Source: Cyclobacteriaceae bacterium
GTDB lineage: Bacteria; Bacteroidota; Bacteroidia; Cytophagales; Cyclobacteriaceae
Reading direction: 5' to 3'
DNA: 64,000 nucleotides
Assembly: GCA_019638395.1 (NCBI GenBank)
Contig: JAHBTX010000004.1
Coordinates: 242,411-306,410 of the forward strand
Made by a program: the position numbers and the translations under genes. Of this stretch, positions 26,205 to 28,508 are shown piece by piece (the stretch's first letter is position 1; each line of letters begins with the position of its first letter). The notes under the pieces were generated by a model. The model had not been told where the DNA came from and made no database searches. It saw nothing but the letters and a program-made list of their open reading frames with translations.

Positions 26205-26229
26205 TACTTATCTATGAGTTCTTAATAGA

Positions 26230-26255
26230 AAGGATGGTGTTAGCCATCCTTTTTT
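26230..26255 (+). terminator. Rho-independent terminator after M19 dipeptidase
   Basis: AGGATGG (26231-26237) pairs with CCATCCT (26244-26250) around TGTTAG, and a T tract runs to 26255. Confidence 0.88.
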
Positions 26256-26272
26256 GTTGTGTTGTTTCTATT

Positions 26273-26298
26273 GCCTAGGTTCGTGTCTTCACGAACCT
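26273..26298 (+). repeat. REP-like palindrome, copy 1
   Basis: GCCT (26273-26276) directly precedes a 22-nt palindrome (26277-26298) with arms AGGTTCGTG and CACGAACCT and loop TCTT. It ends 23 bp before the transposase GTG start. The same palindrome occurs twice more nearby. Confidence 0.85.
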
Positions 26299-26321
26299 CA
26301 CATTAATCTAAATCTTTATTT

Positions 26322-26873
26322 GTGAACAAAAATTCAGGTGGCTTTAAACGAATCTCTCAAATGGATAAGGGCGGTTTGTACTTTTGGACGGCAACTATTA
26401 ACAAGTGGCAACACTTGTTGGGAAGTGATACTTTTAAGGAGATAGTAATTAGCTCACTCGAATACCTAAGTAATGCTGGTAAGTTAGATGTGTTCGCATT
26501 CGTCATTATGCCTAATCATATCCATCTGATTTGGCGGATAAATGAAGATAACGGTAAAGAGAGTTCTCAGGGCTCATTCTTAAAATTTACTGCCCATGAG
26601 TTTAAGAAAATGCTTCCGCAGGATGAATTGGCAAACTATGCAGTTGAAGCCTCCAACAAGAGATATGAATTCTGGCAGCGCGATCCGCTCGCTATTCACT
26701 TATACTCGAAATCAGTCGCCTATCAGAAGTTGGATTATATGCATGCTAATCCGGTTTCAGGAAAGTGGCAATTAGCTAGTGATCCGTGCGCGTATAAGTT
26801 CTCAACTGCACGATTCTATGAACTAGATGAAAAGGCTTTCACTTTTGTAAAGGATTTGAGAGAAGAGTTTTGA
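26322..26873 (+). CDS. REP-associated tyrosine transposase (RAYT), Y1/HUH family
   Basis: A 183-residue TnpA_REP-type protein. The metal-binding HUH motif is NHIHLIW, at about residues 64-70, preceded by VIMP. The C-terminal helix with the expected catalytic Tyr is in AYQKLDYMHANPVSGKW, the form YxxLDYxHxNPV typical of RAYTs. RAYTs cut single-stranded DNA at REP palindromes and are usually single-copy and domesticated. The start is GTG at 26322; a later ATG at 26361 would shorten the N terminus by 13 residues. The frame is intact, so the protein may be functional. Flanking genes are unrelated housekeeping genes. Confidence 0.9.
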   Translation: MNKNSGGFKRISQMDKGGLYFWTATINKWQHLLGSDTFKEIVISSLEYLSNAGKLDVFAFVIMPNHIHLIWRINEDNGKESSQGSFLKFTAHEFKKMLPQDELANYAVEASNKRYEFWQRDPLAIHLYSKSVAYQKLDYMHANPVSGKWQLASDPCAYKFSTARFYELDEKAFTFVKDLREEF

Positions 26874-26880
26874 TTTGTTC

Positions 26881-26906
26881 AGGTTCGTGAAGACACGAAC
26901 CTTGGC
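26881..26906 (-). repeat. REP-like palindrome, copy 2, inverted
   Basis: The 22-nt palindrome at 26881-26902 has the loop AAGA, so it is copy 1 in reverse. TGGC at 26903-26906 is the complement of GCCA, giving the outward flanking tetranucleotide. It begins 7 bp after the transposase stop codon. Confidence 0.85.
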
Positions 26907-26943
26907 GGTGGAAATAACACATTTACGAAGCGATCTCCCTCAT

Positions 26944-27348
26944 TCATTCCGGTATCTCTTCTAACCACTCGCAGGGTACTGATGTGCTATATTGTTTATG
27001 TTGTGGAGTCTTCGAACATATTAACTTTTCAGCGGGCACATTTATAGAGCATATTCTATACCCCCACCCTCCTTCAGAATGAGTTACCATTACTTCTGTT
27101 CCGATCGGTACAGTGCAATCAAAAAAAGAAAAACTACCATCATCCGAAAATTGGAACTTGTACTCAGGTTCTTTTATTACCCTTGCCTTATAATGCCTGT
27201 TTGATCTTATTTCTCTTTCTTTTTTAACCCAATGCATGATGCTGAATATGCCAAAAAAGATTAAAACAATAGGTATAAATATACAACCGCCACGGAAATC
27301 GTTCAGATGTCCTATTTTCCTTCCCGATGAATCATAAATATCAGACAT
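26944..27348 (-). CDS. Orphan small membrane protein of unknown function
   Basis: A 134-residue protein not assigned to a family. One hydrophobic segment, CIFIPIVLIFFGIFSIM (residues 22-38), follows a charged N terminus, so it is probably a single-pass membrane protein. The C-terminal half has a compact beta-rich look with several aromatic residues and four cysteines. It lies alone between REP-like copies 2 and 3, opposite in strand to the transposase. Coding character is moderate; it could be an accessory gene acquired with the repeats. Confidence 0.6.
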   Translation of the reverse strand: MSDIYDSSGRKIGHLNDFRGGCIFIPIVLIFFGIFSIMHWVKKEREIRSNRHYKARVIKEPEYKFQFSDDGSFSFFDCTVPIGTEVMVTHSEGGWGYRICSINVPAEKLICSKTPQHKQYSTSVPCEWLEEIPE

Positions 27349-27398: not shown

Positions 27399-27424
27399 GC
27401 CAAGGTTCGTGTCTTCACGAACCT
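27399..27424 (+). repeat. REP-like palindrome, copy 3
   Basis: GCCA (27399-27402) followed by the same 22-nt palindrome (27403-27424), loop TCTT, in the orientation of copy 1. It ends one base before the stop codon of the Ldh-family gene and may act as a 3' hairpin for that minus-strand transcript. Confidence 0.85.
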
Positions 27425-27425
27425 C

Positions 27426-28508
27426 TTAACCCAAACTAACCCCCAAACTTTCTCCAACTACTCTCAAATCCTCAACAACTTTCTGCACCAACGGAATCCC
27501 TTCTTTCATTCGAATCGCTTCAAACTCTCTCTCCGGATCGCCCGGTATTACTAAATGGTCGTAACCTTCAGCAGTTTTTGCACTACGAAAGCGCGCAATC
27601 CAATTGTCCATGTGTGTTTTAAATTCAGCTGCTGGGCGGAATGCATCTATCCGCATCGCACCAAAAAAATGACCAATACCTTCACCCACCGGGTCGGCAG
27701 GTGGGGCAAGAAAACTAACAAAAGGCGGAACCCACGGCCCATAATTCGCGCCACTTAACACAGCCGAAAAAATATCTACCCATGCACCCAAACAAAAACC
27801 TTTATGACTGCCATGCTCGCGATCGCTACCCAGCGGTAACAGCGCACCGTCATCTTTCAATTCGTTAGGATTGATTGATGTGCTGCCATCTTTTTTCTGA
27901 ATCCAGCCTTCGGGTGCTTCTTTATTTTTGCGTTGCAGTATTTCAAGTTTGCCATTAGCTGCGGTTGTCGTAGCAAAGTCCGCCACAAACGCAGGTTGTT
28001 TATCGGCTGGTATCGCTACACAAATCGGGTTGGTGCCCAGCAATCGCTCAACAGAAAAAGTAGGAGCCACTAACGGGCTCGCATTCGTCATGGCTATGCC
28101 AATCATATCTTTTTGCAACGCCATCATAGCATGATAGCCGGCAATACCAAAATGATTAGAGCCTTTTACAGCAACCCAACCTGTTCCGGCTACAGCCGCT
28201 TTTTGCATCGCTATTTCCATGGCTTTAGGTGCTACTACAAGTCCTAACCCACTATCACCATCCACCACTGCAGTGCTGGGTGTTTCGTGTACCACTTTAA
28301 TGTTGGGTGTACTGTTGATGCGCTTTGCTTCCCACAGGCGCACATACCCTGAAAGTCGCGCTACTCCGTGCGAGTCGATGCCTCTTAAATCAGCGCTAAG
28401 CAATACATCGGCTGCAAGCTGGGCATCGGCTTCGGGGCAATTCATTTTTCTGAAAATAGCAACGGCAAACTGCCGTAATTGGGGATAAGAAATCGTTAAT
28501 TCAGTCAT
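27426..28508 (-). CDS. Ldh-family NAD(P)-dependent oxidoreductase
   Basis: A 360-residue enzyme of the malate/L-lactate/ureidoglycolate dehydrogenase type 2 family, distinct from Rossmann-fold lactate dehydrogenases. Landmarks are the catalytic His in LRGIDSHGVARLSGYV, KGSNHFGIAGYH with the nucleotide-binding loop, and GTNPICVAIPAD. It reduces or oxidises 2-oxo or 2-hydroxy acids; substrate cannot be told. Cytoplasmic, single gene, divergent from the muiA-like gene. Confidence 0.92.
   Translation of the reverse strand: MTELTISYPQLRQFAVAIFRKMNCPEADAQLAADVLLSADLRGIDSHGVARLSGYVRLWEAKRINSTPNIKVVHETPSTAVVDGDSGLGLVVAPKAMEIAMQKAAVAGTGWVAVKGSNHFGIAGYHAMMALQKDMIGIAMTNASPLVAPTFSVERLLGTNPICVAIPADKQPAFVADFATTTAANGKLEILQRKNKEAPEGWIQKKDGSTSINPNELKDDGALLPLGSDREHGSHKGFCLGAWVDIFSAVLSGANYGPWVPPFVSFLAPPADPVGEGIGHFFGAMRIDAFRPAAEFKTHMDNWIARFRSAKTAEGYDHLVIPGDPEREFEAIRMKEGIPLVQKVVEDLRVVGESLGVSLG

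Follow-up and report, generated by a model that had tools for sequence, protein, structure and literature searches.

The stretch of DNA analysed here (the window) comprises 64,000 nucleotides of a Cyclobacteriaceae genome and carries, at 26273-26906, a short gene bracketed by two inverted palindromes. This arrangement raises the question of whether the gene and the palindromes form a REPtron and, if so, which tag beside the hairpins stands in the place of GTAG. Comparison of sequences makes it highly probable that the locus is a REPtron of Bacteroidota RAYT group 5 (subclass 2.6) with cognate hairpins tagged by GCC.

The gene (26322..26873, plus strand) starts with GTG and encodes a protein of 183 amino acids. 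As the original prediction held, the protein has an HUH motif and a RAYT-type tyrosine motif: NHIH (H66 and H68, codons 26517-26525) and YMHANP (catalytic Tyr139, codon 26736-26738) are both present, together with WQ. The tyrosine motif is the Y---NP of class 2, in a variant of the family majority YIHxNP. The protein matches NCBIfam NF047646 (REP_Tyr_transpos) with an E value of 2.5e-20 and 72.9 bits, below the cut-off of 80; a Pfam search with the 183-residue protein gave no match, and Y1_Tnp is matched by 19 of 62 aligned family sequences. An AlphaFold2 model built on the alignment of these 62 natural sequences has a mean pLDDT of 93.7, and among solved structures it is best matched by 4er8, a complex of the E. 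coli RAYT with a REP hairpin. The alignment shows no variation at residues H66, H68, W118, K136, Y139, N143, S161, and Y166. The gene product is thus predicted to be a single-tyrosine HUH endonuclease, and the HUH and Y---NP motifs in a Y1-transposase fold, with inverted tagged hairpins on the flanks, are those of a class 2 RAYT (TnpA-REP).

Within this class, subclass 2.6 (group 5) has been described as mostly from Bacteroidetes and flanked by 'atypical' structures lacking GT[AG]G (Quentin et al. 2018, PMC6006769). Its published marks are NH[LIV]H, WQ, YIH[QN]NP, a conserved SS in the tail, and an insertion of ~21 residues between alphaC and beta4 (PMC6006769). The window RAYT agrees with the subclass in taxon, motifs (NH[LIV]H, WQ, and Y-x-H-x-N-P), length (about 180 residues), tail serines, and hairpins without GT[AG]G. 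By profile alignment, the segment before the W motif is ~20 residues longer than in 4er8, a possible counterpart of the published insertion. Serine 161 is found in all 88 sequences compared and a serine at position 162 in 80 of the 88; the window protein has T162. Judged by record titles, 78 of 80 named matches of the family belong to Bacteroidota.

The two palindromes lie where the original prediction placed them. Hairpin 1 (26277..26298, plus strand) is a REP-like element of 22 nt with a 9-bp stem and the loop TCTT, and is separated from the gene by 23 bp; hairpin 2 (26881..26902, minus strand) follows the gene after 7 bp and is the exact reverse complement of hairpin 1. The original count of two overlooked a third, identical copy, hairpin 3 (27403..27424, plus strand), which has the orientation of hairpin 1 and is preceded by GCCA. 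The stem pattern is matched three times in the window at up to three mismatches, against a mean of 0.02 in 100 shuffles, and the palindromes are not a product of chance. Folded individually as single-stranded DNA, the three copies give z values of -7.4, -4.6, and -5.2.

On the plus strand, GCCT (26273-26276) precedes hairpin 1 and TGGC (26903-26906) follows hairpin 2, which had been read as a GCCW tetranucleotide outside each palindrome. GCC is indeed present at both. The W, however, is stem position 10, which is unpaired in all three window copies (T at 26276 in hairpin 1) and paired in many relatives. The tag is better described as GCC alone, at a distance of 10 nt from the loop. The proposed guides are accordingly located at 26273..26275 (plus strand), 26904..26906 (minus strand, GGC on the plus strand), and 27399..27401 (plus strand). 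Between hairpins 2 and 3 lies an ORF of 134 residues (26944..27348, minus strand) without an NCBIfam match; inspection by eye indicates a likely membrane segment, and the ORF is probably a bystander.

The start of hairpin 2 just past the stop codon, between convergent ORFs, would also suit a transcription terminator or attenuator that has GCC beside it by chance. We regard this as very improbable, as no T-run follows the hairpins, one copy lies upstream of the RAYT gene, and the register of the tag is fixed, with a strand bias, in the two data sets described below. In addition, a terminator-like hairpin with a T-run is already present at 26229-26252, just upstream of hairpin 1.

The likeness between hairpins 1 and 2 reaches ~18 nt past the tags, giving arms of 41 nt (26258-26298 and 26881-26921) that are 88% complementary; hairpin 3 does not share this extension. 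Long arms of this kind could function in double-stranded form as the terminal inverted repeats of a TIRYT-type element, but each arm is a perfect hairpin by itself, the palindrome is also found singly, and hairpin 3 is without the extension. Moreover, subclass 2.1, with its HTH-like tail, accounts for 20 of 26 TIRYTs (PMC6006769), whereas the window protein ends at residue 183. A TIRYT-type element is in our view a very unlikely explanation, and we retain the reading of the palindromes as REP-like hairpins.

We then asked how regularly GCC accompanies hairpins of the family. RAYT homologs were fetched from relatives, and 136 loci were read (three repeat extractions excluded), of which two had no match, leaving 134 distinct loci. 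The search for flanking hairpins admitted stems of 8-12 bp with loops of 3-5, and strand orientation was set by the loop alone; the cognate elements are short perfect hairpins whose loop is rich in pyrimidines. The main count is restricted to loci scoring 100 bits or more, 104 in number, with 237 hairpins. GCC is found directly outside stem position 10 in 118 of the 237 hairpins on the loop-pyrimidine (tag) strand and in none on the opposite strand. For NCC the corresponding numbers are 179 and 9, with 58 family hairpins lacking NCC at the register. Shifting the register by one base in either direction reduces GCC to 1 and 9 and NCC to 41 and 19, the residual NCC being derived partly from runs of C. 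A loop that begins with T marks the tag strand in 259 of 292 tagged hairpins.

A second, non-overlapping set was assembled from named genome contigs: 80 loci, of which 10 had already been seen, leaving 70 new ones; 7 of these fell below 90 bits and were dropped, and 63 were used. No hairpin was detected at 14 of the 63 loci. The hairpins at the remaining 49, 136 in number, carry GCC in 71 cases on the tag strand versus 3 on the other, and NCC in 102 versus 6. Thirty-one hairpins served as controls: other loci contributed 18, the flanks of 21 weak homologs 11, and the remainder of the window 2. Counted on either side, GCC occurs in 2 and NCC in 3 of the 31 controls, compared with 112 and 173 of 219 hairpins in family flanks.

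The orientation of the tags recurs as well. At 75 loci each flank has a tagged hairpin no more than 300 bp away; the tags point outward at 61 of these and inward at 2. An inverted pair of alike hairpins is present at 62 of the 134 homologous loci; at the other 72, many of which are weak homologs or close to contig ends, the search detected no such pair. The stems themselves vary with the protein clade (GGTTCGTG, GGTCTGTG, TGTTGGTG, CGTGAGTG, TGCTTGTG, and others), while GCC is mostly kept. A constant tag beside differing hairpins suggests, at the level of sequence, that the tag is a part read by the enzyme.

The classical REP signature, GT[AG]G at the hairpin foot, is absent from the locus, where GCC is found instead. 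The proposal of a RAYT with hairpins tagged other than by GTAG is well supported by the register, strand bias, and outward tags seen across the family, although the non-GTRG kind as such had already been published (PMC6006769). Bacteroidetes RAYTs of this type with atypical hairpins are the known subclass 2.6 (group 5). What goes beyond the available texts on that subclass is the GCC tag, its register, the outward orientation, and the clade variants, and we make no claim of priority for these. A consensus tag was not found in the available text of PMC6006769, whose Table S1 may list hairpins. GCC is not named as a tag of RAYT hairpins in the literature covered, a search that did not use GCC as a term and extended to PMC6006769 exclusive of its supplementary tables; nor is it named in the available parts of PMC2817692, PMC12306157, PMC3116915, and PMC3733652.

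The original prediction proposed a search for further tagged copies in the genome, and such copies exist, namely the third at the locus and others on a second contig, C12. In the 4.78-Mb genome, the exact palindrome with the 9-bp stem occurs at five places and its 8-bp core at six: three at the RAYT locus, two on C12, and one on contig C21. The tags of the six copies are GCC, GCC, GCC, TCC, GCC, and TTC (TCC belonging to a C12 copy and TTC to the C21 copy), that is, GCC in four and NCC in five. Dispersal of cognate hairpins, the mark of a REPtron, is thus observed for three of the six copies, a low number, one of the three lacking NCC. The genome contains a second RAYT (on contig C1), 38% identical to the first, with different stems and again GCC tags.

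The window stem core was found in 49 hairpins, the majority outside this genome and many not close to any RAYT gene; 30 carry NCC on the tag strand (19 of them GCC) and 6 on the other strand. Copies of the core in two genomes, G164 and G220, are mostly without NCC. Among 58 genomes of the genus, six have an intact RAYT close to that of the window (60% identity or more); all six carry 2-15 cognate hairpins, and in every one of them some hairpin lies apart from the gene. In the other 52, which lack an intact close RAYT, a cognate hairpin occurs in 11 (Fisher 3e-4, kinship ignored). Copy number is 6 in the window's own genome and 1-20 in positive relatives, while classical REPs are present in hundreds of copies (PMC8266576).

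As to presence in relatives, both flanks of the locus could be aligned in three of the fetched genomes, and the unit is absent from all three; in nine others the right flank did not align. Matching sequence ends at 26259, 26254, and 26203 on the left and begins again at 27439, 27439, and 27437 on the right, leaving the segment 26260..27438 unmatched in all three syntenic relatives. Compared with the closest of them, the ends of the absent segment fall within about 15 bp of the hairpin 1 tag and the hairpin 3 end. We searched the three relatives for a clean empty site and found none, the gap being filled by other sequence or genes.

The absence of the unit from the three syntenic relatives, together with a gene flanked by inverted hairpins whose tags face outward, might be taken as the signature of an IS200/IS605-like insertion sequence that moves as a whole and has the hairpins as its subterminal ends. 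Elements such as IS608 and ISDra2 share the catalytic fold and a guide 5' of the hairpin with the window unit, and differ from it in their Y---Q motif, multiple near-identical copies, and movement of the whole element (PMC6006769). Neither the Y---Q motif nor multiple near-identical copies are seen here. The gene is a single copy whose closest relative within the genome is 43% identical, and since no second near-identical copy was found, the unit does not resemble an active insertion sequence. The tyrosine motif is that of class 2, three of the six genomic hairpins lie far from the gene, and relatives have other genes in the gap rather than an empty site. We therefore judge an insertion sequence improbable, if less so than terminators or terminal inverted repeats, and continue with the REPtron.

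G325, one of the three syntenic relatives without the RAYT unit, is the nearest by the flanking dipeptidase (94%); its best RAYT is only 38% identical, and it has three intact hairpins. Inspection by eye shows decayed hairpins in G325 at two sites that match hairpins of the window's own genome, as would be expected if the elements decay after loss of the enzyme. One of these sites corresponds to the C21 copy, for which no clean empty site was found; G325 has decayed hairpin remnants there. With respect to carriage of the RAYT, a search for phage matches found none, and nine plasmid records match, the best with 30% identity.

On C12, two outward-tagged hairpins bracket a gene (2037-2761 of locus L078) that we take to be RibD_C/DHFR-like, the downstream hairpin supplying part of its stop codon. 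The upstream hairpin falls in a segment of ~795 bp that is missing from G325. We considered the bracketed gene as mobile cargo and rejected this, as the gene occupies the same position in G325, with a decayed downstream hairpin (by eye). The ~795-bp segment also contains a relative of another kind (L078:1388-2014; 208 residues), which has NHFH and a tyrosine motif with N and HH, resembles subclass 1.2, and is preceded by a hairpin with a 15-bp stem.

Known RAYTs cut single-stranded REP DNA in a strand-specific manner, with the tag as guide (PMC8266576). By analogy, the window RAYT would bind a hairpin on the GCC strand of single-stranded DNA, with GCC serving as its guide, and would cut and rejoin near tagged hairpins, thereby moving or editing small REP-like elements. 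For GTAG, cutting at CT is matched to tag bases 3 and 4 and cutting at CA to bases 2 and 4; base 4 corresponds to the first cleavage base and base 3 or 2 to the second (PMC8266576). Applied to GCC, this rule predicts cleavage at GG or GC, both of which can be read in the terminal GGC of the inverted partner.

The E. coli REPtron (group 2; 4er8) shares the HUH/Tyr fold and inverted flanking hairpins with the window unit (PMC8266576). Both have a tag at the 5' foot, a GTAG tetranucleotide with bulged stems in E. coli versus GCC with perfect stems in the window (PMC8266576). The REPtrons of Stenotrophomonas and Marinomonas (group 3) have short perfect palindromes like those of the window, but a GTAG tag and a protein of a different group (PMC8266576). 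Loop bases matter for activity in group 3 (PMC8266576), and in the present family the T-first loop marks the tag strand. Of the residues that contact the guide in E. coli, Q95 aligns with Q119, and E100, H101, and R104 align with A124, I125, and Y128, in a weak, ungapped stretch.

In the clade with GGTCTGTG stems and, separately, in a small clade with GGTTCGAG stems, A, T, or C replaces the G of the tag, giving ACC, TCC, or CCC. We compared protein positions with tag class at the 111 of 163 loci with CC on exactly one side; 69 are of G-class, 39 are not, and 3 mixed loci were set aside. Among 167 alignment columns, residue 128 (codon 26703-26705) has the highest raw mutual information with tag class. 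It is aromatic at 58 of 69 G-class loci and 6 of 39 others; the exceptions are therefore 11 non-aromatic G-class loci (one with Asp) and the 6 aromatic ones in the other class. Several tag classes in this analysis are based on a single hairpin each. Residue 128 aligns with E. coli R104 in a profile alignment that is weak-scoring and ungapped between the W and the catalytic tyrosine, and R104 is among the residues tied to GTAG recognition (PMC6006769).

On two trees the tag changes 10 and 11 times, compared with a mean of 32 under shuffled labels. Of 10 and 11 independent pairs, five are concordant for residue 128 and none is discordant, the rest being uninformative (two-sided sign test, 0.06). 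A link between residue 128 and the first base of the tag is suggestive on these alignments. With five informative pairs against none, a sign test of 0.06, and exceptions in both classes, we rejected it as a proven code. A tentative reading, which we think has the odds against it, is that in the guide code of group 5 only the first base varies, CC being constant, and that the equivalent of R104 selects this base, Tyr, Trp, or Phe specifying G and Asp, Asn, or others specifying A, T, or C, with cleavage at GG or GC as the complement of the partner's tag. If this were true, a joint change of residue and tag would give the enzyme a new target.

In the available texts, experimental tests of RAYT guide rules were found for GTAG only. 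A Bacteroidota-wide family with a largely constant non-GTAG tag and natural switches from GCC to ACC, TCC, or CCC provides a comparative set that could address the co-evolution of protein and guide and the choice of cleavage site. The pattern of GCC and hairpin also offers a simple search rule for REP-like elements in Bacteroidota.

The surroundings of the family hairpins have further features. A fixed GG was sought 3' of the hairpins and not found; G is rare immediately 3' of them. Six loci (L066, L067, L097, L098, L102, and L074) have other tags, including GTT, TTG, and TGC, and possibly represent further guide types. A pyrimidine-rich stretch extends from 9 to 4 nt 5' of the stem end, with 0.65 to 0.82 C+T per position, and within this tract 5' of the tag, CT is found at -7 in a weighted fraction of 0.20 of loci, versus about 0.06 further out.
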